In this document: one piece after another, positions 2,094-17,090 of the stretch
Numbering within the stretch: the first letter of the stretch is position 1
How the letters are laid out: each line of letters begins with the position of its first letter
Origin: Allofournierella massiliensis
Lineage (GTDB): Bacteria; Bacillota; Clostridia; Oscillospirales; Ruminococcaceae
Length of the DNA: 64,000 nucleotides
Assembly: GCF_021531255.1 (NCBI RefSeq)
Contig: NZ_JAFBIO010000003.1
Span: forward strand, 1 to 64,000
Reading direction: 5' to 3'
Notes under the pieces: model-generated
What the model saw: only the letters and a program-made list of their open reading frames with translations
What the model was told of the DNA's origin: nothing
Databases searched by the model: none
Program-made: the position numbers and the translations under genes

Positions 2094-3044
2094 TATCTGG
2101 AGCGCACTGGGCACGAAGAACGCATCGACCACCGCAGCCATGCCGAGCGTGGCCTGCTGGAGCGGCCTACGGTCCATGAAGGTGTGGTTGCCAGAGCCAT
2201 GGAGAAAAAGGGCATTATCACTGACCGGTGCGAACTGAACCGGCAGAGCAAGGCCGACAATGCCCTGCTCCGAGAGTTGAGGGAACAGGTCAAAAAGCTG
2301 GCGCAGGCGGTCAGGAACACCCTCCCGGCGCTTGCTGAGGCCATGGAGAATCTGCGTAAAAATCTGCTGCTGTTCTGTTATCAGCTGGGGTATCTCCGCA
2401 AGGGCAAGGAGCGTCTGAACACTTCGCTGAATACGCTTCGCCCTGCCCTCACGCAGTACAATCAGCTGGCAAAGGACATCTGGGATAAGACGAGAGAGCG
2501 CCGCAGCCTGCTCTCCGAGAAAAAGGCGCTCTCTGCTGTCCATGTGTTCCGGCACCGGGAGCTGGCGGCTAAGATTGCGGCTCTGACAGAGGATTTGGAG
2601 GAACTGCGTTCGGAGAAAAATCTGCTTCTGGTGTCTCTGGCATATTCTGAGGAAGATGCCGCCGAAAAATTTTCAAAGGACATTGCAGCCATGGAGCAGA
2701 GCCTGAAACGGTTGGAAGAACAGGAGCAGAAATATTTCGCCGAGCTGGACGCTGCCCTGAACGAGTATGCCGGGCTTCGGGAACAGGCCCAGGGCGTTGA
2801 CCCGGTGCAGCTCTACGAAGCAAGGCAGGCCATCCGCCCCGAAAAGGAACAGGAAGCGGAGAACCAAGCTCAGCAGGTTTACGGCGAGAAGTACAGCCCG
2901 CTTTTGATGTTTGACAGTAAAAAGGCGGTTTCACGGATGCTGCATGAAGATATGGAGCGGCAAGCTGTGCGGAGGATGGTGCGGCAGGCGCAGAAGGAAC
3001 AGATGATTCCCAGCAAGGAAAAGCGTAAGGAACAAGAGCGCTAA
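2094..3044 (+). pseudogene. MobA/MobL-type relaxase, C-terminal fragment
   Basis: From 2094 the frame reads through ERIDHRSHAERGLLERPTVHEG, a motif typical of the end of the nuclease domain in MobA/MobL relaxases of Clostridia elements. About 270 residues of helical coiled-coil tail follow (KADNALLRELREQVKKLAQ onward), ending in a Lys/Arg-rich tail. The N-terminal catalytic region with the Tyr and His-triad is missing, cut at the stub junction near 2093. A GTG at 2184 could initiate the remaining tail, but it could not act as a relaxase. The fragment indicates that a conjugative or mobilizable element once occupied this site and may have delivered the adjacent cobalamin operon. Confidence 0.75.
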
Positions 3045-3104
3045 TTGATGTTATAAAATATATTGAAGCTTTACTAATAAGAACTTTTATCGTCTGTTAG
3101 TTGC

Positions 3105-3133
3105 TTGACAAATATGTATTACTATGATATTTT
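3105..3133 (+). promoter_or_regulatory. Promoter of the cobalamin operon
   Basis: TTGACA at 3105-3110 is followed, after 17 bp, by TATTTT at 3128-3133; TATGAT at 3123 is an alternative. It lies in an AT-rich spacer after the relaxase fragment and immediately upstream of the riboswitch. No other function is seen in 3045-3150. Confidence 0.6.
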
Positions 3134-3149
3134 TTATTCTAAGTAAATA

Positions 3150-3350
3150 TGATATCTGAGTGCCATCAATTTCGTATAGTGTTGATGGAGAATAGTGAAT
3201 CCGGTTGGAATCCGGAACGGTACCGCCACTGTATGCGCGGAGGCACCGCACATGACGAAAGTCGGTCATTGGAAGTTGATTCTGAGAAGGCTGTGCGGAA
3301 TGCTTATGATACGCAAGTCAGGAGACCTGCTCAGATTGTTAAAGTCTATT
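3150..3350 (+). promoter_or_regulatory. Cobalamin (AdoCbl) riboswitch aptamer
   Basis: The conserved core is present: AATAGTGAATCCGG...GAATCCGGAACGG, ACCGCCACTGTA at about 3221-3232, and the B12-box segment AAGTCAGGAGACCTGC at 3315-3330. Order and spacing match class-I cobalamin riboswitches, which usually repress corrinoid or cobalt uptake and synthesis genes when cobalamin is bound. It lies about 175 bases upstream of the chelatase start, and a terminator hairpin in between forms the likely expression platform. The operon should be on when cobalamin is scarce. Aptamer edges are approximate. Confidence 0.93.
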
Positions 3351-3396
3351 TGCTCTCGAGTTATGGAGAAATGGGCTATTTTGTTGCGAAAAAACG

Positions 3397-3434
3397 GCAG
3401 CAGCAGTCATGTATGACTGCTGCTTTCTTTTTTG
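3397..3434 (+). terminator. Riboswitch expression-platform terminator
   Basis: An AGCAGCAGTCAT arm (3399-3410) pairs with ATGACTGCTGCT (3413-3424), followed by TTCTTTTTT. It sits between the B12 box and the first gene, as expected for a transcription-attenuating cobalamin riboswitch. Confidence 0.85.
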
Positions 3435-3523
3435 GCATATCTTTAGCATACTTTTCTCCATTTTACTACTGCTTTTTCGTGTCTTAAACTACAAAAAGAT
3501 ATAAATCAATGGAGGAAAGTAAA

Positions 3524-4729
3524 ATGAAGAACATGAAAAAATTTGTAGCACTCCTGCTTGCGATGTGCATTGCAACATCTCTTGCTGCCTGCGGTTCTCA
3601 GGAAAGTGAGACATCAGACAACTTAGGAGAGGTGTCTTCTACCAATCCAGTCTCTGACGATCAAGCCGCTGCTGATGAGGTGGCCAAGCTGATTGACGCA
3701 ATCTATGTGCAAGAACGAAACGAAAACACGGATGAACAATGTGAGGCTGCAAAGGCTGCTTGGGATGCCCTGACGGATGCCCAAAAGGAATTGGTTTCCG
3801 GCGAATTTGCAGATCCAGACTATTTTGGACGGGATACTGGAGATGCTTCTAAAGATGATCCCCGCAACGGTGATGAAATCGGCGAAAATGAACTGCTCGT
3901 AGTCAGCTTCGGAACCTCTTTTAATGACAGCCGTGTTGCTGACATCAAGAGCATTGAGGACGCTTTGCAGGAAGCCTATCCGGACTGGTCGGTCAGAAGA
4001 GCATTTACCGCCCAGATCATTATCAATCATGTGCAGGCTCGTGACGGAGAAAAGATCGATAACGTCCAGCAGGCGCTTGACCGTGCGGTAGAAAATGGTG
4101 TTAAGAATCTGGTGATTCAGCCTACCCATCTGATGTATGGTGCTGAGTATGATGAGCTGGCAGAAACCGTAGGAGCTTATCAGGATAAATTTGAATCGGT
4201 TCAGATCGCTGCTCCTCTTCTGGGCGATGTCGGTACCGATGCAACTGTCATCAATGAAGATAAAAAAGCTGTTGCAGAGGCTGTTACCGCAGAAGCGGTT
4301 AAGACAGCTGGATACCAGACTCTGGATGAAGCAAAGGCAGACGGCGTTGCATTCGTATTTATGGGTCACGGTACTTCCCACACAGCAAAGGTATCTTACA
4401 GCCAGATGCAGGCTCAGATGGAGGCTCTGGGATACAACAATGTATTCATCGGTACCGTTGAGGGTGAACCGGAAGAAACCGCCTGCGAAGCTGTTATTGA
4501 AAGCATCAAAGAAGCTGGTTATAAGAAAGTCATCCTTCGTCCTTTGATGGTCGTTGCAGGTGACCATGCAAACAATGATATGGCAGGCGATGATGCTGAT
4601 TCCTGGAAGAGTATGTTCAACGCATCTGGCGCTTTTGAGAGCGTTGATACTCAGATTGCAGGCCTCGGTCAGATTCCAGCCATTCAGGAGCTATATGTTG
4701 CACATACTGGTGCTGTAATCAATCAATAA
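3524..4729 (+). CDS. cbiK: CbiK-like cobalt chelatase lipoprotein (exported)
   Basis: CbiK enzymes insert cobalt into sirohydrochlorin, and the family also includes exported tetrapyrrole chelatases. This 401-residue protein starts at 3524; the ATG at 3509 lies inside the GGAGGAAAG ribosome site. Residues 1-23 are a lipoprotein signal (lipobox LAAC), so it is anchored outside the membrane. Residues about 45-90 form a helical module (AAKAAWDALTDAQKELV) of the kind common in Firmicutes surface proteins. The chelatase domain then starts at LLVVSFGTS, with likely metal-site histidines in PTHLMYG, FMGHGTSH and VVAGDHANNDMAG. It is first in the riboswitch operon. An extracytoplasmic location is odd for a biosynthetic enzyme; it may process captured tetrapyrroles or act in cobalt or haem handling instead. 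Family call is strong; substrate is open. Confidence 0.88.
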   Translation: MKNMKKFVALLLAMCIATSLAACGSQESETSDNLGEVSSTNPVSDDQAAADEVAKLIDAIYVQERNENTDEQCEAAKAAWDALTDAQKELVSGEFADPDYFGRDTGDASKDDPRNGDEIGENELLVVSFGTSFNDSRVADIKSIEDALQEAYPDWSVRRAFTAQIIINHVQARDGEKIDNVQQALDRAVENGVKNLVIQPTHLMYGAEYDELAETVGAYQDKFESVQIAAPLLGDVGTDATVINEDKKAVAEAVTAEAVKTAGYQTLDEAKADGVAFVFMGHGTSHTAKVSYSQMQAQMEALGYNNVFIGTVEGEPEETACEAVIESIKEAGYKKVILRPLMVVAGDHANNDMAGDDADSWKSMFNASGAFESVDTQIAGLGQIPAIQELYVAHTGAVINQ

Positions 4730-4744
4730 AGGAACAGATCGAGC

Positions 4745-5248
4745 ATGAAAAAAAGAACGATACTCCTGTGTATGGCTGCTTTGGTCGCTGCTTTCGCCGT
4801 TGGATGCAGCAATCAGACGGATACATCTGCTCAGGACGGCTCCAGCCCTCCAGCTGTTTCGCAGGAACAACAAACAACTCTGGAAGATGGCATCTATTCT
4901 GCTGATTTTGAAACGGACAGCAGCATGTTCCGTGTCAACGAGACATGCGATGGTAAAGGAAAGCTGACGGTTCAGGACGGTAAAATGACCATTCACATTT
5001 CGCTTACCTCTCAGAATATTGTCAATCTTTTCCCAGGCACCGCAGAGGATGCCCAGAAAGATGGGGCAGAACTTTTGCAGCCTACTGTGGATACCGTAAC
5101 TTATGAGGATGGAATAAGCGAAGAGGTCAACGGTTTTGATGTTCCAGTTCCGGTTCTGGACGAGCCGTTTAACCTTGCGCTAATCGGTACAAAGGGAAAG
5201 TGGTACGATCATGAGGTAATTGTATCGAACCCAGAAAAAATTGAATAA
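4745..5248 (+). CDS. Small surface lipoprotein, NEAT-like beta-sandwich
   Basis: 167 residues with a lipoprotein signal (MKKRTILLCMAALVAAFAVGC; lipobox AVGC). After a short Ser/Thr/Pro linker comes one domain that opens with TLEDGIYSADF, runs through GKGKLTVQDGKMTIHISLTSQN and ends with LDEPFNLALIGTKGKWYDHEVIV. The DGxY opening, the DGK-x-x-x-x-I/L strand and a YDH near the end recall the strand order of NEAT-type haem-binding domains, but I cannot confirm a haem-ligating Tyr pair. It starts 15 bases after cbiK and is co-transcribed under the cobalamin riboswitch. A role in binding a corrinoid, porphyrin or cobalt complex at the surface is inferred from context. Confidence 0.7.
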   Translation: MKKRTILLCMAALVAAFAVGCSNQTDTSAQDGSSPPAVSQEQQTTLEDGIYSADFETDSSMFRVNETCDGKGKLTVQDGKMTIHISLTSQNIVNLFPGTAEDAQKDGAELLQPTVDTVTYEDGISEEVNGFDVPVPVLDEPFNLALIGTKGKWYDHEVIVSNPEKIE

Positions 5249-5256
5249 ACCATGCT

Positions 5257-5284
5257 CTGTCCCTGCTCTTAACGGCAGGGACAG
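5257..5284 (+). promoter_or_regulatory. Intercistronic hairpin within the cobalamin operon
   Basis: A perfect 10-bp stem (CTGTCCCTGC with GCAGGGACAG) and an 8-nt loop lie between the second and third genes, followed by ATTTGT rather than a clean T tract. It could be a leaky terminator or an RNA-processing or stability element that sets different expression for upstream and downstream genes. Confidence 0.55.
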
Positions 5285-5310
5285 ATTTGTATCTGGAGAG
5301 GAGGACGAAT

Positions 5311-5856
5311 ATGAGGAGAAGTATATTTCCCTATCTGGTGAAAAAATTTTGTCTTGGGTTATTGATGGTGATGTGTATCACATCCATTATGGTATTTCCT
5401 GCCTCAGCATCTGCGGAAGCAGCAACGGTTGATCTGGAGGATGGTGAATATTCCATAGAAGTCATACTGGAGGGTGGAAGCGGACGGGCGACTATTACAT
5501 CTCCGGCAATTATGACTGTACGGGGTGGAAAGGGTTATGTTCAGATTGAATGGAGCAGCCCGAACTATGACTACATGAAGGTAGAAAATAAAACTTTTAA
5601 ACCACTCCAGGAGACTGGAAATTCCACTTTTGAACTTCCGATTATAGATTTTGATATGCCAATAGCGGTCGTTGCGAATACCACAGCAATGAGCACACCA
5701 CATGAAATCGAATATACATTAACCTTCCTCCAAGACACCATAAAACAAGACACATCTTTTGAAATGATGGCTATGGTTGCAGGAACGGTAATTGTAATTG
5801 CCATAGTCGTAATTATCTCCTTTTTTGGGCTTCATAAGAAACGGAGGAGCAAATAA
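5311..5856 (+). CDS. Membrane-anchored surface protein with one NEAT-like beta-sandwich domain
   Basis: The ATG at 5311 follows GGAGAGGAGG and is preferred over an upstream TTG at 5287. The 181 residues comprise a signal peptide (to about residue 35, ASASA), one domain of about 105 residues, and a C-terminal transmembrane helix (VAGTVIVIAIVVIISFFGL) with a KKRRSK stop-transfer tail. The domain reads DLEDGEYSIEVILEGGSGRA...WSSPNYDYMKV...TFELPI...TTAMSTPHEIEYTLTF. This arrangement occurs in surface proteins found beside metal or haem ABC importers in Clostridia and has a NEAT-like strand pattern; Tyr residues in NYDYM are candidate ligands. It shares the DLEDGxYS opening with the gene upstream. 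Its stop is one base from the next start. The ligand is inferred, not shown. Confidence 0.72.
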   Translation: MRRSIFPYLVKKFCLGLLMVMCITSIMVFPASASAEAATVDLEDGEYSIEVILEGGSGRATITSPAIMTVRGGKGYVQIEWSSPNYDYMKVENKTFKPLQETGNSTFELPIIDFDMPIAVVANTTAMSTPHEIEYTLTFLQDTIKQDTSFEMMAMVAGTVIVIAIVVIISFFGLHKKRRSK

Positions 5857-5857
5857 A

Positions 5858-7003
5858 ATGAGAAAAATGGCAGTAGTTTTATTGTGTTTTATCCTCATAT
5901 TTACTGTATCCTCCTGCGGTTCACCTTCTGAAGCTGATTTGCTGGAAACACGTAATACTGATATCAGTCCGGATTTAACCTTCGATCACAGTATGCCTCT
6001 CGATTATGCCGAGGAATTTGCAGTGGACTATTACAATGATGGATATGCGCTTATTACCATCTTCAATGGTACGCAGTATCTGGTAATCCCAGAGGGAAAA
6101 CCAGAGCCATCCGGTTTGGATGAAAACATTGTGCAGCTGCACCAACCAATCCAAAACATTTATTTAGTTGCCTCGGCTGTGATGGATATGTTTGTTTCGA
6201 TGGATGCGGTGGATACGATCCGTTTCAGTGCGCTGAAAAGCGATGGCTGGTATATTGAACCAGTGCGTGCGGCAATGGAATCTGGAAATATTCTATATGC
6301 TGGAAAATATTCCGCTCCGGATTATGAGCACCTCATTGATGAGAATTGCAGTTTGGCGATTGAGAACACTATGATTTTTCATACGCCCGAAGTGAAGGAA
6401 CAGCTGGAGAAGTTTGGAATCCCGGTTTTGGTGGATTATTCCAGTTATGAGTCTCACCCTCTCGGCAGAACAGAATGGGTAAAACTCTATGGATTGCTGA
6501 CCGGACAGCAGGAAGCTGCTGAGTCAGCGTTCAATGCAGAAAAACAGGCGTTTGAGTCTGTCAGCGGAGCACAGCCTACCGGAAAAACAGTTGCATTTTT
6601 TTATATCACAACCAATGGCGAGGCTAACGTACGCAGACCGTCCGATTATCTGGCGAAAATGATTGAAATGGCTGGTGGAACCTATATTTTGGAACAAGAT
6701 CCCGATGATGAAAGTAAATCTTCCACCATGAGCATGGAGATGGAAGCTTTTTATGCACAGGCAAAGGATGCCGATTATATCATCTATAACAGCACAGTAG
6801 ACGGGGAACTCAAATCTCGGGATGAATTATTAACGAAAAGTCAGCTTTTAGAGAACTTCAAGGCTGTGCAGAATGGAAATGTTTATTGTACAACCCAGAA
6901 CATTTACCAGTCCACTATGGAACTTGGCACCATCATCGCGGATATCCATAATATGCTGCAAGGAGATGATCAGAGCCTTACCTATATTTACAAGTTGGAG
7001 TGA
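5858..7003 (+). CDS. ABC importer substrate-binding lipoprotein (BtuF/FecB-type)
   Basis: Start ATG at 5858, after CGGAGGAGC; the upstream ATG/GTG options extend into the previous gene. 381 residues with a lipoprotein signal (MRKMAVVLLCFILIFTVSSCG; lipobox VSSC). Two lobes of the periplasmic-binding-protein class III fold are recognisable. The first includes NIYLVASAVMDMFVSMDAV and GNILYAGKYSAPDYEHLIDENCSLAIENTMI; a middle helix follows; the second includes KTVAFFYITTNGEANVRRPSDYLAKMIEMAGGTYI and ADYIIYNSTVDGE. Proteins of this type feed Fe-siderophore, haem or corrinoid to FecCD-type permeases. Riboswitch control favours a corrinoid or related tetrapyrrole as substrate. The permease gene starts 8 bases after its stop. 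Confidence 0.85.
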   Translation: MRKMAVVLLCFILIFTVSSCGSPSEADLLETRNTDISPDLTFDHSMPLDYAEEFAVDYYNDGYALITIFNGTQYLVIPEGKPEPSGLDENIVQLHQPIQNIYLVASAVMDMFVSMDAVDTIRFSALKSDGWYIEPVRAAMESGNILYAGKYSAPDYEHLIDENCSLAIENTMIFHTPEVKEQLEKFGIPVLVDYSSYESHPLGRTEWVKLYGLLTGQQEAAESAFNAEKQAFESVSGAQPTGKTVAFFYITTNGEANVRRPSDYLAKMIEMAGGTYILEQDPDDESKSSTMSMEMEAFYAQAKDADYIIYNSTVDGELKSRDELLTKSQLLENFKAVQNGNVYCTTQNIYQSTMELGTIIADIHNMLQGDDQSLTYIYKLE

Positions 7004-7011
7004 TACAACAG

Positions 7012-8025
7012 ATGAAGAAAAAACGATATTTTGCTGCATTTGTTGTTTTATTTGTGCTTCTGCTTTTGTTTCTGGTCATGAACCTATGTATCGGAAGCGT
7101 TAATATTCCATTTTCTGAGATTCCTAAAATCCTTCAAGGAATCGGAACGGATGAAACCTACACAGAAATTGTTACGCAGGTCCGAGCGCCAAGAGCATTT
7201 GCAGCGATGATTTTGGGAGGTGCCCTCGCATTATCCGGATATCTGCTGCAAACCTTTTTCCACAATCCAATCGCAACCCCGTTTACGCTGGGCGTTTCAT
7301 CCGGTGCAAAGCTGATTGTCGCATTGGTGATGGTAGCGTCCCTGCAATTTTCAGTACAGCTCGGTTCATGGCGGATGATTCTTGCGGCCTTTGCCGGTTC
7401 CATGTTATGCATGGGTTTTGTTATTCTAATGTCCAAAGTCATCAATCAGATGGCAATGCTCATTGTCAGCGGCGTCATGATCGGCTATATCTGTTCTGCT
7501 GTGACTGACTTTGTTGTTACATTTGCGGATGATGCGGATATTGTAAATCTGCACAATTGGTCTCTGGGCAGCTTTTCGGGGATTAACTGGGACAATGTAA
7601 AAGTTATGGCAATCGTAGTGCTTATTACGATGTTTTTTGTGTTTCTGTTATCCAAACCAATTAGCGCCTATCAGATGGGTGAAGCCTATGCGCAGAATAT
7701 GGGGCTTAATGTATCACGTTTCCGTATTGTGCTGGTGATCCTGTCCAGTATCCTTTCGGCCTGTGTAACTGCATTTGCCGGACCGGTATCCTTCGTCGGA
7801 ATCGCCGTTCCTCACCTTGTCAAAGGCTTGTTTGGTACAACACAGCCGATTTTAATGATTCCAGCTTGCTTCTTAGGAGGTGCGTCATTCTGCCTGTTCT
7901 GCGATTTGCTGGCAAGAACAGTATTTACTCCCACCGAGTTGTCGATCAGCACGGTAACTGCAATTTTGGGCGCTCCGGTGGTTATCTACATTATGCTACG
8001 CCGGAAAAGAGAAAAGATGGGGTAA
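7012..8025 (+). CDS. FecCD/BtuC-type ABC transporter permease
   Basis: 337 residues. The ATG at 7012 sits after a GGAG at 6997-7000; a GTG at 7000 is possible but has no ribosome site. The chain is strongly hydrophobic, with about nine to ten membrane helices. It carries the family signatures RAPRAFAAMILGGALALSGYLLQTFFHNPIATPFTLGVSSGA, split across the second helix region, and GPVSFVGIAVPHLVK near residues 255-270, which is the coupling segment contacting the ATPase. These permeases form dimers for vitamin B12, haem or ferric-siderophore uptake. It is the fifth gene of the riboswitch operon, flanked by its binding protein and ATPase. Confidence 0.9.
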   Translation: MKKKRYFAAFVVLFVLLLLFLVMNLCIGSVNIPFSEIPKILQGIGTDETYTEIVTQVRAPRAFAAMILGGALALSGYLLQTFFHNPIATPFTLGVSSGAKLIVALVMVASLQFSVQLGSWRMILAAFAGSMLCMGFVILMSKVINQMAMLIVSGVMIGYICSAVTDFVVTFADDADIVNLHNWSLGSFSGINWDNVKVMAIVVLITMFFVFLLSKPISAYQMGEAYAQNMGLNVSRFRIVLVILSSILSACVTAFAGPVSFVGIAVPHLVKGLFGTTQPILMIPACFLGGASFCLFCDLLARTVFTPTELSISTVTAILGAPVVIYIMLRRKREKMG

Positions 8026-8031
8026 TCGGGA

Positions 8032-9141
8032 ATGAATCATGGCTATCTATATACAAAAGATTTAACTGTTGGTTATAATGGTATACCGCTCATCCGCAAT
8101 ATTCAGCTTGAAATAAATAAAGGCGAAATTGTTACATTGATAGGACCAAACGGTGCAGGAAAAACAACTATTTTGCGCAGTATTATCCAGCAGTTGCCAC
8201 CCGTGTGTGGCGTTGTATGGTTAGATGGACAACAGGCGGAGAAAATGCCGGGCAAAGAAATGGCGCAAAGGCTGTCCGTTGTATTGACCGAACGGGTAAA
8301 TTCTGAGATGATGAATTGCGAAGATGTTGTGGCAACTGGCCGATATCCTTATACGGGGAAATTCGGCATTCTATCCCAAGAAGATTGGAAGATCGTGCGT
8401 GAATCCATGGAGCTGGTGCGCATAACGGAGCTGGCCAACCGAGATTTCAATAAAATCAGTGACGGACAAAAGCAGCGGGTTATGCTGGCAAGAGCACTAT
8501 GCCAGCAGCCTGATGTGATCGTTTTGGATGAACCGACTTCTTTCCTGGATATCCGTTACAAATTGGAGTTCTTATCTATTTTGCAGGAGATGTCCAGAAA
8601 GCGGAATCTGACAGTGCTTATGTCGCTGCATGAACTTGACCTTGCCGGGCGTATCTCGGACAAGATTGCTTGCGTACAGGGGGATCAAATCGACCGGTTT
8701 GGGACGCCCGAAGAAATCTTTACCCAAGGATATATTCCTCAGCTTTATCAGATGACAACCGGCTCTTATGATGAACTGACCGGCGATTTGGAACTGCCAT
8801 CGGTGCAGGAGAAACCTGAGATTTTTGTCATTGCAGGAAATGGCACCGGAACCAGCATATTTCGCAGATTGCAGCGTGAAAGAAAAGCGTTTGCAACTGG
8901 AATCCTGTGGGAAAATGATATAGACTTTGCTTCGGCTAAATCATTGGCGGCAGAAGTAATTTCTGTACCTGCCTTTCATTATATTTCAGATGAGCAAATA
9001 AAGCAGACAAAGAAATGGATCAATGAATGTGAATTCGTTATTTGTACATTAAAAGAATCAGATATGGTCGGTTTTGCGAAAGCTCTAAGCAATTTAGCAG
9101 AGTATGCAAAGATAAAGGGCAAACTGATAACGTATCCATAG
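8032..9141 (+). CDS. FecE/BtuD-type ABC transporter ATPase with C-terminal extra domain
   Basis: 369 residues. Residues 1-250 form the nucleotide-binding domain: Walker A GPNGAGKTT (about 38-46), signature SDGQKQR in place of the commoner SGGQ, Walker B VIVLDEP, and H-loop SLHELD. SDGQ-type signatures are known in this importer subclass. About 105 residues follow (IFVIAGNGTGTSIFRRLQRERKAFATGILWENDID onward), resembling a nucleotide- or ligand-sensing add-on found on some corrinoid and metal importer ATPases. It starts 6 bases after the permease and powers uptake. The extra domain may sense a ligand and gate transport; that part is inference. Confidence 0.88.
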   Translation: MNHGYLYTKDLTVGYNGIPLIRNIQLEINKGEIVTLIGPNGAGKTTILRSIIQQLPPVCGVVWLDGQQAEKMPGKEMAQRLSVVLTERVNSEMMNCEDVVATGRYPYTGKFGILSQEDWKIVRESMELVRITELANRDFNKISDGQKQRVMLARALCQQPDVIVLDEPTSFLDIRYKLEFLSILQEMSRKRNLTVLMSLHELDLAGRISDKIACVQGDQIDRFGTPEEIFTQGYIPQLYQMTTGSYDELTGDLELPSVQEKPEIFVIAGNGTGTSIFRRLQRERKAFATGILWENDIDFASAKSLAAEVISVPAFHYISDEQIKQTKKWINECEFVICTLKESDMVGFAKALSNLAEYAKIKGKLITYP

Positions 9142-9145
9142 ATTG

Positions 9146-9259
9146 ATGGATTGGCAGAAAGGTAAAGATTGTGAAATTTACGAAAAATACCTCGCGGAAA
9201 ACCGGTTATGTGTTGTTTCCACGGGGATGAATGTGATTGTTTGGAGAAAACACCCTTGA
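9146..9259 (+). CDS. Possible 37-residue ORF or gene remnant at the operon end
   Basis: An ATG at 9146, 4 bases after the ATPase stop, opens 37 codons reading MDWQKGKDCEIYEKYLAENR, then LCVVSTGMNVIVWRKHP, then TGA. The strand-turn-strand flavour of the end suggests the remains of a larger protein rather than a designed peptide. No ribosome site is obvious, though coupling to the preceding stop is possible. The AT-rich island ends in or just after it, before the GC-rich Nudix gene, so it may mark where a longer operon was cut. I recognise no family. Confidence 0.3.
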   Translation: MDWQKGKDCEIYEKYLAENRLCVVSTGMNVIVWRKHP

Positions 9260-9285
9260 CAAATCTCTTTCCAGGAAGAAAAACA

Positions 9286-10948: not shown

Positions 10949-11060
10949 TGGATTGTGTATAGAAACAGAGAGGGAAAAGCGGCTATCTTTCCTCCCGGCA
11001 GGAAAAAGAGTATAATATCTTTTTATGGGTTCTATTTCAAAAATCGGAGGAGCGGCGTAT

Positions 11061-12860
11061 ATGAACAGGGAAAACGGGGCAAAGCGGCGGCTGACCGTGG
11101 GGATTCTGGCCCATGTGGACGCGGGCAAAACGACCCTGTCGGAGGGGCTGCTCTACCGGTTTGGGGAACTGCGCCGCCTGGGGCGGGTGGATCACGGAGA
11201 TACCCTGCTGGATTCCAACCAGCTGGAACGTGCCCGGGGCATTACCATCTTTTCCAAGATGGCCATTCTGCGGGATGAAGAGCTGGAGATCAGCCTGCTG
11301 GATACCCCCGGCCATGTGGATTTTTCCGCCGAGATGGAGCGCACCCTCTCGGTGCTGGATTATGGTATCCTGGTCATCAGCGGCACCGACGGGGTGCAGG
11401 GCCATACCGAGACCCTCTGGTCCCTTTTAAAGCAGTACGGGGTGCCGGTGTTCCTGTTTGTGAACAAGATGGATCTGCCCGGAACCGACCGGGAGAAGAT
11501 TCTGGAGGAACTGCGGGCCCGGCTGGATGAGGGGATCCAGGATTTTACCGCCCCCCTGGGGGAAAGCGCCGCCCTCTGCGATGAGGCCCTGATGGAGGAA
11601 TATCTGGAAAAAGGGGAGTTTTCTCCCCAGGCCCTGACCGGGGCAATCGCCCGGCGGGGGATCTTCCCCTGTTATTTCGGCTCTGCCCTCAAACTGCAGG
11701 GGGTGGATGAACTGATCGATGGGCTGCACCGGTATACCCGCCAGCCGGCGACCGGGGAGGCCTTTGGGGCCCGGGTATTCAAGGTGGCCCAGGATGAACG
11801 GGGCGCCCGGCTCACCTACCTGAAGGTGACTGGGGGCTGCCTGAAAGTCAAGGATACCCTCCGGGGCCGCAGGCCCAGCGGGGGAGAGTGGAGCGAAAAG
11901 GCGGACCAGCTGCGGGTTTATTCCGGGCCCCGGTATGAGCTGGCCGGCCAGATATTGCCCGGCCAGGTCTGCGCGGTGACCGGCCTGGACCAGGCCTGCC
12001 CCGGCGAAGGGCTGGGGGCGGAGGGCTGGGCCCAGCCGCCGGTATTGGAGCCGGTGCTCTCCTATAAGGTGGAGCTGCCTGAGGGGATAGACCCCCACAC
12101 CGCCCTGACCCAGCTGCGCCAGCTGGAACAGGAGGAACCTCAGCTGCGCCTGCGCTGGCAGGAGGGCAGCCGGGAGATCCAGATCCAGCTGATGGGGGAG
12201 GTACAGAAGGAAATCCTGGCCAGCCTGGTGCGGGAGCGGTTCGGCTGGCAGCCGGGATTTGGCCAGGGCAGCATCCTGTACAAGGAAAAAATCGCCAAGG
12301 AAACTGAGGGCGTGGGCCATTTTGAGCCCCTGCGCCATTATGCCGAGGTACACCTGCTCATGCGGCCGGGCAAGCCAGGCAGCGGCCTGGTTTTCCGGGC
12401 CGACTGCCGGGAGGAGGTGCTGGACAAGAACTGGCAGCGGCTGGTGCTGACCCACCTGGCCGAAAAGACCCATCTGGGGGTTCTCACCGGTTCGCCCCTC
12501 ACCGATACCGAGATCACCCTCATCGGAGGACGGGCCCATCTGAAACATACCGAAGGGGGCGACTTCCGCCAGGCCACCTACCGGGCGGTGCGCCAGGGGC
12601 TGCGAACCGCCGGCTGTCTGCTGCTGGAGCCCTGGTATCAATTCCGGCTGGAACTGCCTGCCGAAAACCTGGGCCGGGCCATGACCGATATCCAGCAGAT
12701 GGGGGGGCGCTTTTCGGCCCCGGAATCCCAGGGGGAGACCGCCCTGCTGGAAGGCGAAGCGCCGGTGGCCGGCCTGAGGGAATACCAGGCCGAGCTGACC
12801 CGGTACACCCGGGGCCGGGGCAGGCTGAACACGGCCCTGAAAGGGTACGAGCCCTGCCAC
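11061..12860 (+). pseudogene. Ribosomal-protection-type GTPase fused to an NYN domain, 5' part (interrupted)
   Basis: ATG at 11061 follows GGAGGAG; a TATAAT lies at 11011. Six hundred intact codons encode an EF-G/Tet(M)-like GTPase: AHVDAGKTT (G1), RGITI (G2), DTPGHVDF (G3), NKMD (G4), then the EF-G domain II, III, IV and V order of the family. The sequence is well diverged from Tet proteins. The frame runs to LKGYEPCHN at 12861, where the mobile element begins; element bases then add only four codons and a TAA at 12876-12878. The missing 3' part resumes in frame at 24037. The intact gene would encode about 860 residues ending in a NYN nuclease domain. The truncated product could still be made as a stand-alone GTPase. 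I do not infer tetracycline resistance for this gene. Confidence 0.88.
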
Positions 12861-12862
12861 AA

Positions 12863-12886
12863 TGCTCATGTACGGTAAGGAAGCAA
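12863..12886 (+). repeat. Left terminal inverted repeat / attL arm of the tet(W) element
   Basis: TGCTCATGTACGG continues to GAAGCAA at 12886 and matches the reverse complement of 24013-24036 at 19 of 24 bases. It lies directly inside the AA at 12861-12862. In the excised circle the two arms would flank a central AA, the expected form of a large-serine-recombinase attachment site. Confidence 0.75.
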
Positions 12887-12950
12887 GCAACCGAAAACAA
12901 GAGATAGACCGCCAGCACTACACTATTCCGAACCAAAGACCAAAAGATAA

Positions 12951-12992
12951 GCATTGTGGGAAAATCTAAACTTTTGGATTTTCCTACAATGC
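12951..12992. repeat. Long inverted repeat near the element's left end
   Basis: A 16-base arm, GCATTGTGGGAAAATC, pairs with GATTTTCCTACAATGC with one G/T wobble and a 10-nt loop. There is no T tract. It lies in the 12887-13196 stretch, which otherwise holds no gene that I can support. It could block read-through from the interrupted host gene or be a protein-binding site. Confidence 0.5.
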
Positions 12993-13196
12993 CAACTACG
13001 GCGGAATCCCTCCCACTCCTTATATCTTTCTGTATACATTGAATTTGTATTTAGTAAAATGCAGACAACACCACGGATCGGCTTTTGGTTGGACAATTCC
13101 AACCAAACACCACAGCAGACAGCAGAAAACATTCTGAACGCTAGGAAGCCGGTATGATTGTTACATATAAGGGGAAGAAAAATTTCTTTTAGGTAC

Positions 13197-13225
13197 TTGC
13201 TTTCCTAAAACTGATGTGATATAAT
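13197..13225 (+). promoter_or_regulatory. tet(W) promoter
   Basis: TTGCTT at 13197-13202, a 17-bp spacer, then TATAAT at 13220-13225. Transcription starts just before the leader peptide ribosome site (AAAAGGAG). This fits the conserved upstream region known for tet(W). Confidence 0.82.
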
Positions 13226-13253
13226 GATTTAATCCAGAAAAGGAGTAAAAAAT

Positions 13254-13277
13254 ATGCGGCAAGGTATTCTTAAATAA
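13254..13277 (+). CDS. tet(W) leader peptide MRQGILK
   Basis: Seven codons from ATG 13254 after AAAAGGAG. The end of the peptide coding sequence, GTATTCTTAAAT (13264-13275), is exactly complementary to ATTTAAGAATAC at 13349-13360. Ribosome position on the leader can therefore change the fold of the downstream leader, as in the attenuation described for ribosomal-protection tet genes. Confidence 0.7.
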   Translation: MRQGILK

Positions 13278-13445
13278 AACTATAATCAAATAGTGGGAAC
13301 AAAGGATTATGATAGCTCCTTTTGTAGGGGCTTAGTTTTTTGTACCCAATTTAAGAATACTTTTGCCTTATCAATTTTGACATATCCCCAAAAACAGCAA
13401 TCACAAACAGGTGTATGCTGTATATGTGTATGTCCGCAACTTATA

Positions 13446-13486
13446 ATCCCCAGTGGTAAAAGTATTTTACTGCTGGGGATTTTTAT
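13446..13486 (+). terminator. Attenuator terminator in the tet(W) leader
   Basis: ATCCCCAG...CTGGGGAT closes a stem that continues GTGGTAAAA/TTTTACTGC-like, followed by TTTTTA, 33 bases before the tet(W) start. Together with the leader peptide and the 13264/13349 pairing it forms the expected drug-responsive attenuator. The open frame from 13293 across this leader is not a gene. Confidence 0.8.
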
Positions 13487-13518
13487 GCCCTTTGGGGCTG
13501 TAAAGGGAGGACAATCAC

Positions 13519-15438
13519 ATGAAAATAATCAATATTGGAATTCTTGCCCATGTAGACGCTGGAAAGACGACCTTGACGGAGAGCCTGCTATATGCCAGCG
13601 GAGCCATTTCAGAACCGGGGAGCGTCGAAAAAGGGACAACGAGGACGGACACCATGTTTTTGGAGCGGCAGCGTGGGATTACCATTCAAGCGGCAGTCAC
13701 TTCCTTCCAGTGGCACAGATGTAAAGTTAACATTGTGGATACGCCCGGCCACATGGATTTTTTGGCGGAGGTGTACCGCTCTTTGGCTGTTTTAGATGGG
13801 GCCATCTTGGTGATCTCCGCTAAAGATGGCGTGCAGGCCCAGACCCGTATTCTGTTCCATGCCCTGCGGAAAATGAACATTCCCACCGTTATCTTTATCA
13901 ACAAGATCGACCAGGCTGGCGTTGATTTGCAGAGCGTGGTTCAGTCTGTTCGGGATAAGCTCTCCGCCGATATTATCATCAAGCAGACGGTGTCGCTGTC
14001 CCCGGAAATAGTCCTGGAGGAAAATACCGACATAGAAGCATGGGATGCGGTCATCGAAAATAACGATGAATTATTGGAAAAGTATATCGCAGGAGAACCG
14101 ATCAGCCGGGAAGAACTTGCGCGGGAGGAACAGCGGCGGGTTCAAGACGCCTCCCTGTTCCCGGTCTATCATGGCAGCGCCAAAAAGGGCCTTGGCATTC
14201 AACCGTTGATGGATGCGGTGACAGGGCTGTTCCAACCGATTGGGGAACAGGGGAGCGCCGCCCTATGCGGCAGCGTTTTCAAGGTGGAGTATACAGATTG
14301 TGACCAGCGGCTCATCTATCTGCGGCTATACAGCGGAACGCTGCGCCTGCGGGATACGGTGGCCCTGGCCGGGAGAGAAAAGCTGAAAATCACAGAGATG
14401 CGTATTCCATCCAAAGGGGAAATTGTTCGGACAGACACCGCTTATCAGGGTGAAATTGTTATCCTTCCCAGCGACAGCGTGAGGTTAAACGATGTATTAG
14501 GGGACCAAACCCGGCTCCCTCGTAAAAGGTGGCGCGAGGACCCCCTCCCCATGCTGCGGACGACGATTGCGCCGAAAACGGCAGCGCAAAGAGAACGGCT
14601 GCTGGACGCTCTTACGCAACTTGCGGATACTGACCCGCTTTTGCGCTGCGAAGTGGATTCCATCACCCATGAGATCATTCTTTCTTTTTTGGGCCGGGTG
14701 CAGTTGGAGGTCGTTTCCGCTTTGCTGTCGGAAAAATACAAGATTGAAACAGTGGTAAAGGAACCCACCGTCATTTATATGGAGCGGCCGCTCAAAGCAG
14801 CCAGCCACACCATCCATATCGAGGTGCCGCCCAACCCGTTTTGGGCATCTATCGGACTGTCTGTTACACCACTCCCGCTTGGCTCCGGCGTACAATACGA
14901 GAGCCGGGTTTCGCTGGGATACTTGAACCAGAGTTTTCAAAACGCTGTCAGGGATGGTATCCGTTACGGGCTGGAGCAGGGCTTGTTCGGCTGGAACGTA
15001 ACGGACTGTAAGATTTGCTTTGAATACGGGCTTTATTACAGTCCAGTCAGCACGCCGGCGGACTTCCGCTCATTGGCCCCGATTGTATTGGAACAGGCAT
15101 TGAAGGAATCGGGGACGCAGCTGCTGGAACCTTATCTCTCCTTCATCCTCTATGCGCCCCAGGAATACCTTTCCAGGGCTTATCATGATGCACCGAAATA
15201 CTGTGCCACCATCGAAACGGCCCAGGTAAAAAAGGATGAAGTTGTCTTTACTGGCGAGATTCCCGCCCGCTGTATACAGGCATACCGTACTGATCTGGCC
15301 TTTTACACCAACGGGCGGAGCGTATGCCTGACGGAACTGAAAGGGTATCAGGCCGCTGTCGGCGAGCCGGTCATCCAGCCCCGCCGTCCAAACAGCCGCC
15401 TGGACAAGGTGCGCCATATGTTTCAGAAGGTAATGTAA
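13519..15438 (+). CDS. tet(W): Tetracycline resistance ribosomal protection protein Tet(W)
   Basis: 639 residues, ATG at 13519 after AAAGGGAGG. Tet(W) is an EF-G-like GTPase that binds the ribosome and dislodges tetracycline. All motifs are intact: [31 protein letters not shown]; the C-terminal [17 protein letters not shown] holds the family's domain IV/V end. Length and sequence match my recollection of Tet(W) nearly end to end, with a few substitutions, rather than Tet(M), Tet(O) or Tet(32). It has its own promoter and leader attenuator. It is cargo of the mobilizable element and is inserted into a distant paralogue of itself. Confidence 0.95.
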
Positions 15439-15488
15439 AGATACATAATCGTCAAGACGGCAACAATCAGAAGTTATGGAGGGTAACA

Positions 15489-16256
15489 ATGGAATATAGT
15501 AAGGAAGATTTAATGGAAGCAAAAAAGCAAATTTGGGGAGTGGGAGAGAACATGGGAACAGAGGAAAGTAAAAAAATCTGGGAGGAGAACGCACAATTTT
15601 GGGATAATGCAATGGGTGACGAATCTAATGAATTTCACAGAGAGGTAGTGCGTCCCAAAGTAACGGAACTTCTATCTCCTAATCCTGCGGATTACATTTT
15701 GGATATTGCGTGTGGCAATGGAAATTATTCTTCGTATCTTGCACAAAGAGGCGCTTCGGTTGTCGCTTTTGATTACAGCAAAAAAATGATAGAATTGGCT
15801 AAAAGACGGCAATCACAATATGCAAAACAAATTGAATTTTGTGTGGCGGATGCGACCGATAGAAAAAGTATATTAGAATTAAAAAGAAATCGAGCCTTTA
15901 CGAAAGCAGTTTCTAATATGGCAATTATGGATATTACGGATATTGAACCACTTCTTATGGCTGTTTATGAACTGTTGCAGGAAAGCGGAATTTTTGTCTT
16001 TGCAACGCAACACCCTTGTTTTGTCACGTTGACTGAAAAATATATGACACCGCACAGTTACTATGATATAGCGATTGAAGGGCAACCGAAAGAGCAGATT
16101 TATTATCATCGTTCCATACAAGATATTTTTAACCTTTGTTTTAGAGCTGGATTTGTCATTGATGGATTTTATGAAGAATGTTTTAAAACCAACAAAGAAA
16201 TTCCTATGGTAATGATAGTAAGGCTTAAGAAGGTAAAACGTGATAGCTTAAAATAA
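15489..16256 (+). CDS. SAM-dependent methyltransferase with a hybrid N-terminus
   Basis: 255 residues from ATG 15489 (GGAGGG upstream); an internal ATG at 15552, also with a GGGAGAG site, is the natural start of the methyltransferase. The class-I Rossmann motif LDIACGNGNYSSYLA and the acidic VVAFDYSKKMIELA strand are present, then CVADAT and HPCF near the C-terminal part. The substrate is unknown. The first 15 or so residues (MEYSKEDLMEAKKQI) instead match the start of a small element-borne protein whose relative is encoded at 22104-21904. The gene is AT-rich compared with the element backbone, suggesting separate acquisition next to tet(W). Bases 16257-16427 after it hold no gene. Confidence 0.8.
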   Translation: MEYSKEDLMEAKKQIWGVGENMGTEESKKIWEENAQFWDNAMGDESNEFHREVVRPKVTELLSPNPADYILDIACGNGNYSSYLAQRGASVVAFDYSKKMIELAKRRQSQYAKQIEFCVADATDRKSILELKRNRAFTKAVSNMAIMDITDIEPLLMAVYELLQESGIFVFATQHPCFVTLTEKYMTPHSYYDIAIEGQPKEQIYYHRSIQDIFNLCFRAGFVIDGFYEECFKTNKEIPMVMIVRLKKVKRDSLK

Positions 16257-16427
16257 ATTCAAGTTTGTCGGGTAAATAGCAAACCCAGCCGAGCCAGTCA
16301 ACGGTCAAGATGAACGGCGCATATGCGCAGCCGTTGACAGCCCCGCCCGCCTTTGCTGGTAGGCAATCAAGGGGCGACAGCAAGAAGTGCCACCGCCCCG
16401 CACTATTATTCAGAAAGGGGAATTTCC

Positions 16428-16850
16428 ATGACCGACCAGATAGCCTATCAAGAATATATCCAGCGCAGGTACAACGCCTTTTGCAAGACTGTTATCCGCT
16501 GTGCCGCCTTGGACAAGATTTTGAAGCTTAAACGGCAATGGGAACGGCAAGTTTCCCTTGACTATCTGATGAACGAGAAGTTTGTCCAGTTTGCCGCGTC
16601 GGAGCCGGACGAGGAATACCCATTTACCGTCTGCGGTCAGACCGTCCTGCTCTGCAACGCCGCCCTTGCCGACGCGATCTCTGTTTTGCCGGAGCAGACG
16701 CGGGAAGAAATCCTGCGCTATTACTTTCTGCGCCAGCCGCAGCGCGTGATCGGCGCGTGTATTGGCCGGTCACGCAGCACAGCGGGGCGGCATATCCAGC
16801 TTGCCTTGCAGCGGCTACGCGAAGAAATGGGGGTGAGCCGGTATGAGTAG
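16428..16850 (+). CDS. Sigma-70-like factor of mobile elements
   Basis: 140 residues, ATG at 16428 after AGAAAGGGG. The N-terminal half has a conserved KTVIRCAALDKILKLKRQWERQVSLDYL segment typical of small sigma-like proteins carried by Clostridia integrative elements. The C-terminal half is region 4-like: LPEQTREEILRYYFLRQPQRVIGACIGRSRSTAGRHIQLALQRLREEM, a helix-turn-helix with Arg-rich recognition. It probably controls element genes. Its last 8 bases overlap the next ORF. Confidence 0.78.
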   Translation: MTDQIAYQEYIQRRYNAFCKTVIRCAALDKILKLKRQWERQVSLDYLMNEKFVQFAASEPDEEYPFTVCGQTVLLCNAALADAISVLPEQTREEILRYYFLRQPQRVIGACIGRSRSTAGRHIQLALQRLREEMGVSRYE

Positions 16851-17055
16851 ACTTCTCCCCTATGAAACAATCCTCAAAGCCCGTGAGGGCGACCCAGAAG
16901 CCGTGAACGCTGTCCTGCTCCACTACGCCGGATATATCCGCTATTTCTCAAAAGTGAACGGGCAGGTCAACGCCGAGGTGGAGGACTATGTAAAGCAGCG
17001 GTTAATTGACTGTCAATTCAAGTTCCGGCTTGACGAACCACCGGACAAGTCATAA
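16843..17055 (+). CDS. Helix-turn-helix conjugative-transposon-like protein
   Basis: 70 residues beginning MSRLLPYETILKAREGDPEAV, with the LLHYAGYIRYFS and KQRLIDCQFKFR segments. This is the small HTH family that sits directly after the sigma-like factor in Tn916-related and mobilizable elements. The RPYETILKAxEGDxEAI start resembles sigma region 2. It overlaps the preceding gene, so the two are co-translated and likely work together in element regulation. Confidence 0.82.
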   Translation: MSRLLPYETILKAREGDPEAVNAVLLHYAGYIRYFSKVNGQVNAEVEDYVKQRLIDCQFKFRLDEPPDKS

Positions 17056-17090
17056 AAACTGAATACCAGCCGCCACCGACGCGGCCAGCG

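Follow-up and report, generated by a model that had tools for sequence, protein, structure and literature searches.

A cobalamin riboswitch-controlled operon of gut Bacillota with an exported CbiK-family chelatase and predicted NEAT proteins, a candidate uptake system for B12-pathway tetrapyrroles

Introduction

Tetrapyrrole precursor salvagers, mostly Firmicutes, have been defined from genome sequences and verified for 5-aminolevulinic acid, according to the accessible part of the study by Shelton et al. 2018 (PMC6461909). The class of precorrin-2 salvagers is put at 0.6% in the available text of a review (PMC8123684). In the accessible sections of a survey of gut bacteria, the anaerobic B12 pathway variant runs from CbiK/CbiX onward and includes no Hem genes (PMC6593275), so that an exported CbiK could be scored as a pathway enzyme. 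Here we describe a six-gene operon located on a 64,000-nucleotide (nt) stretch of Allofournierella massiliensis DNA (contig NZ_JAFBIO010000003.1, positions 1 to 64,000; hereafter, the window). The operon stands behind a cobalamin riboswitch and codes for an exported CbiK-family chelatase, two surface proteins with a predicted NEAT fold and an ABC importer. It very probably serves the uptake of a B12-pathway tetrapyrrole through a NEAT relay rather than the uptake of haem.

The Iht system of Porphyromonas gingivalis is hardly characterised; the accessible part of one report states that IhtB is thought to take iron from haem and that IhtB is not regulated by PgFur (PMC10913741). P. gingivalis lacks the steps to precorrin-2, according to the available portion of the salvager study (PMC6461909). 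The preliminary description of the window had singled out the present operon as the best candidate there for an undescribed system. This was a fair assessment, as we found no description of the gene set in the open-licence PMC literature, covered mostly at listing level. With respect to structures, we take IhtB to be the FetB of PDB entry 9b86, and entries 2xvx-2xvz to be the periplasmic CbiK of Desulfovibrio vulgaris. Judging by a paper's title, D. vulgaris reportedly has two functional CbiK proteins, and we know of no NEAT or importer partners for the exported one.

Results

A cobalamin riboswitch and a terminator precede six closely spaced genes

Rfam found a single cobalamin riboswitch in the window, at 3142-3348 on the forward strand. 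Six genes lie 3′ of the riboswitch and its terminator, all on the same strand and separated by gaps of at most about 60 nt. The locus comprises the following features:

3105..3133, + strand: sigma-70-like promoter, TTGACA-17-TATTTT (consensus match only)
3142..3348, + strand: cobalamin riboswitch aptamer, RF00174 (Rfam covariance model, 92.2 bits against a gathering threshold of 31.5)
3399..3424, + strand: intrinsic terminator of the expression platform, an 11-bp stem followed by a T-run (hairpin search)
3524..4729, + strand: P1, exported CbiK-family chelatase lipoprotein (PF06180; lipobox by eye)
4745..5248, + strand: P2, NEAT-A lipoprotein (predicted NEAT fold with a retained S-S-M-F lip; last strand with W-Y-D-H and without YxxxY)
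5311..5856, + strand: P3, NEAT-B, with a C-terminal helix of transmembrane (TM) length (predicted NEAT fold; P-H-E-I-E-Y in the last strand)
5858..7003, + strand: P4, substrate-binding lipoprotein in a BtuF-like position (Peripla_BP_2, 101.4 bits)
7012..8025, + strand: P5, FecCD/BtuC-type permease (FecCD Pfam; ATG at 7012 chosen as the start, the mechanical open reading frame [ORF] beginning at GTG 7000)
8032..9141, + strand: P6, ABC ATPase extended at its C-terminus by about 110 amino acids (aa) (ABC_tran Pfam)

The aptamer and terminator ahead of a compact gene cluster, as first noted in the preliminary description, were thus confirmed. Promoter-like and terminator-like sites are about as numerous in the region as in shuffled sequence, and the evidence for these two elements is therefore their position. 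The gene set is not a chance assembly, because 58 of 80 related loci have the complete set of six and one further arrangement has it in another order behind a riboswitch of the same class (L098: NEAT-B, binding protein, permease, ATPase, CbiK lipoprotein, NEAT-A).

These 80 loci, mostly from gut and rumen Lachnospiraceae and Oscillospiraceae, were the best found in a genome scan with P1 as the query. NEAT-A is present in 77 of them and NEAT-B in 68. Rfam detected a cobalamin riboswitch in all eight loci tried. A model built from those eight and the window found the riboswitch core 5′ of the chelatase gene in 74 of the 80 loci, eight of these positives thus having helped to build it; 73 were found by script, and the other was L032, whose ORF start had been set too far upstream. 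Among the misses, the contig begins within 120 nt of the chelatase gene in L067, L083 and L085, and the model found no riboswitch near the P1 homologue in L053, L061 and L080. The survey of gene sets behind cobalamin riboswitches, which had been proposed as a check, thus points to cobalamin and not iron-type control, no search for Fur sites having been made. In some relatives the operon continues into corrin genes, with CbiD, F, G, H, J, ET, A, B, CobD, CbiP and CbiC in L138, and with CbiL, F, G, H, J, ET, A, CobT, weaker-scoring U, S and C, and then CbiB in Faecalibacterium longum.

P1 is an exported CbiK-family protein with an intact catalytic triad

P1 belongs to the CbiK family, with a PF06180 score of 242.4 bits (cut-off, 26.2). 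Its score for the NCBIfam CbiK equivalog NF047852, 200.3 bits, is below the cut-off of 400. The protein is composed of a lipobox, an N-terminal region of about 100 aa and a chelatase domain (residues 124-399); its first 100 aa exceeded no Pfam or NCBIfam family cut-off. Alignments with three structures span the whole chelatase domain: the cobaltochelatase 1qgo (E 3e-41), 9b86, which is named haem-binding protein FetB (E 2e-35), and 2xvx, a putative chelatase (E 4e-31). We take them to come from Salmonella, P. gingivalis and Desulfovibrio, respectively. Alignment identified E208, H282 and H348 as the catalytic residues, and we take E89, H145 and H207 of CbiK to be their counterparts in role and numbering. 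The Glu/His/His triad is invariant (81/81 chelatases).

A script found a lipobox in 66 of the 80 full-length chelatase ORFs, and the remaining 14 have a signal peptide by eye. By these signals, the proteins fall outside the definition of CbiK as a cytosolic enzyme. The earlier proposal of an exported chelatase was therefore borne out, and the catalytic residues are intact.

P2 and P3 are predicted to be divergent NEAT proteins that lack the haem motif

Both small proteins match the NEAT family PF05031 below its cut-off of 32.8 bits (17.6 and 16.9 bits), and an A-B relative in L016 scores exactly 32.8. Iterative profiles were run over 89 loci, 80 found with P1 and nine with P3, a few of which are near copies of the window. 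They yielded 169 NEAT-like domains, or 167 once two short ones had been dropped, which fall into two types, A (P2-like, n = 88) and B (P3-like, n = 79). The two types occur in the order A-B in 72 of 87 domain-bearing loci.

AlphaFold2 models computed from 76 (A) and 74 (B) aligned sequences had mean pLDDT values of 88.0 and 90.4, and the B model ends in a C-terminal helix of TM length. The top Foldseek ranks were all NEAT/Shp structures, 1-15 for A and 1-44 for B. The best PDB match was 4myp_A for NEAT-A (Z 11.4, 103 aligned, 2.7 Å) and 3sik_B for NEAT-B (Z 12.3, 105 aligned, 2.4 Å), and the first rows with another fold appeared at Z 4.6 and 5.7, respectively. For comparison we used a canonical NEAT set of 16 domains, presumably haem-binding, that remained from 18 matches in two genomes after removal of one weak partial match and one without a stop-free cut. 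HHalign against this set gave probabilities of 89.5% for A and 95.5% for B. Fold and profile comparisons together ruled out a chance likeness, and we conclude that P2 and P3 have a predicted NEAT fold with a divergent sequence. The NEAT-type character attributed to them in the preliminary description, for which an unrelated predicted fold with no ligand pocket was to count as a refutation, thus held at the level of the models, with Pfam scores still below the cut-off.

The YxxxY haem motif of the last strand was found in none of the 88 A domains and in two of the 79 B domains, versus 13 of the 16 canonical ones. By a loose pattern, the S-M lip of NEAT pockets is present in 81/88 A, 5/79 B and 11/16 canonical domains. 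The B domains end in P-H-E-[IV]-E-Y, with the His in 75 of 79, and two of them read YEIEY. In a first mapping this His coincided with the axial Tyr, and HHalign and the end points of the structural alignments shift it by two residues; the apparent loss of YxxxY is the one claim that we make on the last-strand motif. By eye, the NEAT proteins of the window carry no LPXTG/NPQTN sortase signal, their anchors being the lipobox and the TM helix.

Other NEAT proteins were encountered in the course of these analyses. L017 codes for a 1595-aa protein (12272-17059) in which a binding-protein part is combined with multiple NEAT domains, of which three of type A and one of type B passed length filtering; its gene stands behind a second riboswitch of its own (11936-12067). 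L079 and L022 have additional NEAT-B proteins apart from the main operon, with a second riboswitch at 3909-4048 in L079. In a genome of the same order (G073:C7:7879-17291), four NEAT matches lie in frames of 288 to 1633 aa, some of which are weakly touched by the A profile.

Colinear fusions outline a relay

P5 and P6 exceed the Pfam cut-offs for FecCD and ABC_tran. Their best NCBIfam matches are BtuC (NF003001, 226.5 bits, below the cut-off of 334) and a corrinoid ABC ATPase (NF007082, 209 bits, below the cut-off of 537), respectively. Fusions are frequent in the 80 loci. The chelatase and the NEAT domains are joined as CbiK-A (20 cases), CbiK-A-B (5) and A-B (30), and fusions to the binding protein take the form B-binding protein (17) or A-B-binding protein (4). 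At the inner side, the ATPase is fused to CbiP in 11 cases and to CbiD in two (Faecalibacterium and Gemmiger). Three of the ATPase fusions, those of L073, L023 and L025, were checked with Pfam. One fusion, in L068, has the inverse order, A-CbiK. These fusions indicate the relay order CbiK, A, B, binding protein, and they give colinear support to the relay architecture proposed earlier.

The B12 pathway of many hosts appears to be cut from the front

Pathway genes were searched in 38 genomes that we picked among the hosts of the 80 loci for long contigs and named strains; one of them, G413, is apparently identical with the window relative G001, as their coordinates agree. CbiD was detected in 37 of the 38, the exception being G421. 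HemC is present in 20 and absent from 18. Uroporphyrinogen methyltransferase (SUMT) is above the cut-off in 22, and all 16 genomes below it are HemC-less. For precorrin-2 dehydrogenase, PF13241 touches all 38 genomes, but 15 of the 18 HemC-less ones show no match stronger than E 1e-20. Thus, 15 of the 38 genomes have kept CbiD with no HemC, SUMT or precorrin-2 dehydrogenase found (G397, G407, G409-413, G417, G419, G422, G423, G428, G430, G431 and G433), and by their corrin genes and lack of HemC and SUMT these 15 fall into the precorrin-2 salvager class. Their best weak PF13241 matches lie in other proteins, TrkA (11, two by eye), glutamate synthase (3) and dipicolinate synthase (1). Named strains rather than metagenome-assembled genomes (MAGs) among the 15 are Faecalibacterium longum, Gemmiger formicilis, Pseudoflavonifractor MSJ-37, Kineothrix MSJ-39, Hominifimenecus microfluidus, AC2031 and AC2012.

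In 14 of these 15 genomes, no CbiK/CbiX other than the exported chelatase was found, and the latter is the only intact CbiK in the fifteenth, G428, whose second CbiK (G428:C1:989184-989945, L148) is degenerate, with AGET for AGDH, has no NCBIfam match and lies beside trkA. No CbiX was found outside CbiK frames at E 0.001 in the 38 genomes. A second CbiK occurs in 13 of the 38, and none of the 12 that were read has a signal peptide. It is lacking in 17/18 HemC-less and in 8/20 HemC-bearing genomes (Fisher p 5e-4, an optimistic value since the genomes are related). The link that holds is that HemC-less genomes with the exported chelatase have no other intact CbiK. The pathway looks cut from the front, in HemC, SUMT, the dehydrogenase, the cytosolic CbiK and sometimes CbiL, and the ring would enter from outside as sirohydrochlorin or as the cobalt form of it. 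This pattern is what the import of an early intermediate would allow.

An early B12 precursor and other candidate cargoes

The specific mechanism that we propose, riboswitch-controlled uptake of an early B12 precursor with cobalt inserted outside the cell, stands in our estimate at close to an even chance, and a number of observations weigh against it. CbiL, detected at E 1e-30 in 27 of the 38 genomes, is missing at that threshold from 11 (G397, G398, G400, G401, G409, G418, G421, G423, G427, G430 and G432), of which six are HemC-less, five are HemC-bearing and none has a second CbiK. This is a difficulty for sirohydrochlorin in particular, because the ring imported there would have to be a later one, which may be cobalt-factor III, or CbiL would have been replaced. 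Several of the 38 genomes are MAGs of unknown completeness (G421 lacks CbiD, CbiL, HemC and SUMT), the 80 loci are best matches only, and the search for early tetrapyrrole genes took in HemC, SUMT and precorrin-2 dehydrogenase. NEAT-A was found alone in 10 of 87 loci. The window's own genome bears HemC (a fragment at a contig end) and, on another contig, a CbiK-D-L-F-G-H-J-ET operon with a cytosolic CbiK, gene names being by eye, with further support for CbiK and CbiD. The absence of HemC says little by itself, as HemC was found in just 16 of 100 window relatives. Among the relatives, 24 have a CbiK and no NEAT-B match; 19 of these were fetched, the other five being partial CbiK matches, and none of the 19 has a NEAT protein in the fetched stretch. 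Ten of the 19 are HemC-less, and by eye the CbiK looks cytosolic in all 19 but the HemC-bearing L163. Cells without HemC can thus do without an exported chelatase.

A link between the lack of HemC and the exported chelatase as such was tried and fails, HemC being absent from 6/9 relatives with NEAT-B and from 10/19 fetched CbiK-bearing ones without it. A scavenged ring thus seems to be used in two ways, which differ in whether the chelatase works inside the cell or outside. FecCD permeases lie near the cytosolic CbiK in four of the ten HemC-less relatives (L153, L158, L159 and L162), possibly an inside-chelation version of the same scavenging. In a HemC-bearing relative, L163 (G007:C10), the CbiK begins with a hydrophobic segment and may also be exported, although the stretch that was fetched contains no NEAT partners for it.

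The main rival to the uptake of an early precursor is the capture of finished corrinoids or cobinamide, in which NEAT-A and NEAT-B would bind corrinoids, the CbiK-like protein would be a surface receptor or remodelling factor, and the importer would be an ordinary BtuFCD. The riboswitch class speaks for it, as do BtuC and a corrinoid ATPase among the best NCBIfam matches, both below their cut-offs, and CobT, CobU, CobS or CbiP, each present in 20 to 28 of the 80 loci, would fit salvage. We nevertheless consider it less likely, as corrin ring synthesis, represented by CbiD in nearly all of the 38 genomes, would be superfluous for salvage alone, the catalytic triad is invariant, and those genomes that carry the system but lack HemC contain no other intact CbiK. 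A surface chelatase and NEAT proteins might also trap Co2+ as a tetrapyrrole complex, mainly to import cobalt. The only cobalt transporter searched for, CbiM, is absent from 22 of the 38 genomes, including 10 of the 18 HemC-less ones; however, it occurs alongside the system in the other 16, three of these being weak matches scored as present, and a cobalt supply leaves the absence of ring synthesis unexplained, which makes this explanation improbable.

An Isd-like uptake of haem or iron-porphyrin, in which the chelatase would release iron, could account for the predicted NEAT fold and for the likeness of the chelatase to 9b86, an entry named as haem-binding protein. We rejected it as the main explanation and regard it as highly improbable given the cobalamin riboswitch in 74 of the 80 loci, the near absence of YxxxY relative to canonical NEAT domains, and the linkage and fusion to corrin enzymes. 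For the same reasons, namely that the set travels with corrin ring synthesis and has almost no haem motif, the stripping of metal-porphyrin suggested in the preliminary description is unlikely. The cargo had been given there as a corrinoid or metal-porphyrin; the relay architecture is supported, and sirohydrochlorin or cobalt-sirohydrochlorin, as early precursors of B12, are likelier cargoes than a finished corrinoid or haem.

The operon of the window was probably acquired by recent horizontal transfer

A stretch of about 6.6 kb containing the operon (about 2641-9277) is 98.5% identical to the Ruminococcaceae MAG L010 and to G038, which belongs to another genus, and the identity ends within the flanking genes. 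This suggests that the operon was gained sideways, probably by recent horizontal transfer. With HemC and a cytosolic CbiK operon, the genome of the window does not fit the precorrin-2 salvager class, and the exported system may only supplement synthesis there. The contig that bears the operon with the cytosolic CbiK (L096, G000:C41) is short and has a riboswitch-like core at positions 83-153.

Upstream of the exported system, the gene at 2184-3044 resembles a relaxase C-terminus by eye and has no NCBIfam match. A TetM/W/O/S-family ribosomal protection gene lies just downstream at 13519-15438, + strand (1293 bits; cut-off, 1100), and a remoter relative of this family is found at 11025-12878, + strand (394 bits; cut-off, 775).

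Discussion

We propose the following mechanism. When cobalamin is low, the terminator would not form and the operon would be expressed, as the RNA class and the terminator suggest for an OFF switch. The lipid-anchored outer CbiK would then insert Co2+ into a scavenged ring of the sirohydrochlorin type, or swap its metal; that the exported CbiK is the site of cobalt insertion is what we infer from its export signal and invariant triad together with the genome context. The product would pass from NEAT-A to NEAT-B, the binding protein and the FecCD/ABC importer. Inside the cell, CbiL, CbiH, CbiF, CbiD and other enzymes would build the corrin ring, as suggested by the continuity of the operon and the ATPase-CbiD and ATPase-CbiP fusions in relatives.

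Taken further, gut Bacillota of several genera, including Faecalibacterium, that are unable to make the ring may metallate a scavenged one with the exported CbiK and take it up by way of a NEAT relay switched from haem to a B12 precursor. Such a relay could explain how salvagers of the precorrin-2 type, for which an uptake route is missing, obtain their precursor, and the Porphyromonas Iht system might serve the same purpose in a Gram-negative host instead of supplying iron. We advance this combined proposal tentatively, as a serious possibility. For genera of the human gut, the operon offers a concrete candidate system for the uptake of late (post-uroporphyrinogen) precursors. If the proposal is correct, NEAT domains carry cargo other than haem, a step of B12 biosynthesis is located outside the membrane, and the count of B12 producers among gut bacteria changes. 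A further prediction is that a ring precursor of B12 is shared by cross-feeding.

Each of the closest described systems shares part of this organization. Similar to the Isd and Hbp haem relays, the present system has NEAT folds, tandem or single, anchored outside and feeding a binding protein and an ABC importer. Unlike those relays, it has almost no YxxxY, a cobalamin riboswitch in place of an iron setting, and a chelatase within the relay; where Isd is defined by sortase-anchored NEAT proteins and iron control, we found lipobox and TM anchors and the riboswitch (Fur sites were not searched for). With BtuFCD it has in common a binding protein, a FecCD permease and an ATPase under a cobalamin riboswitch. 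It differs by NEAT-B, sometimes fused to the binding protein, by the exported chelatase, by the fusion of the ATPase to CbiD or CbiP in some relatives, and by scores below the BtuC and BtuD equivalog cut-offs (226.5 of 334 and 209 of 537). The exported CbiK of D. vulgaris (2xvx-2xvz) is of the same family as P1 (E 4e-31).

Shelton salvagers likewise retain corrin and loop genes and miss early tetrapyrrole genes, but, in the accessible part of that study, they are a phenotype class without a named uptake system (PMC6461909). The Iht system (IhtA-E) also combines an exported CbiK-like lipoprotein with a binding protein, a permease and an ATPase. Unlike Iht, which has an outer-membrane TonB receptor, the operon described here has NEAT proteins, and no TonB-dependent receptor is found among its six genes.

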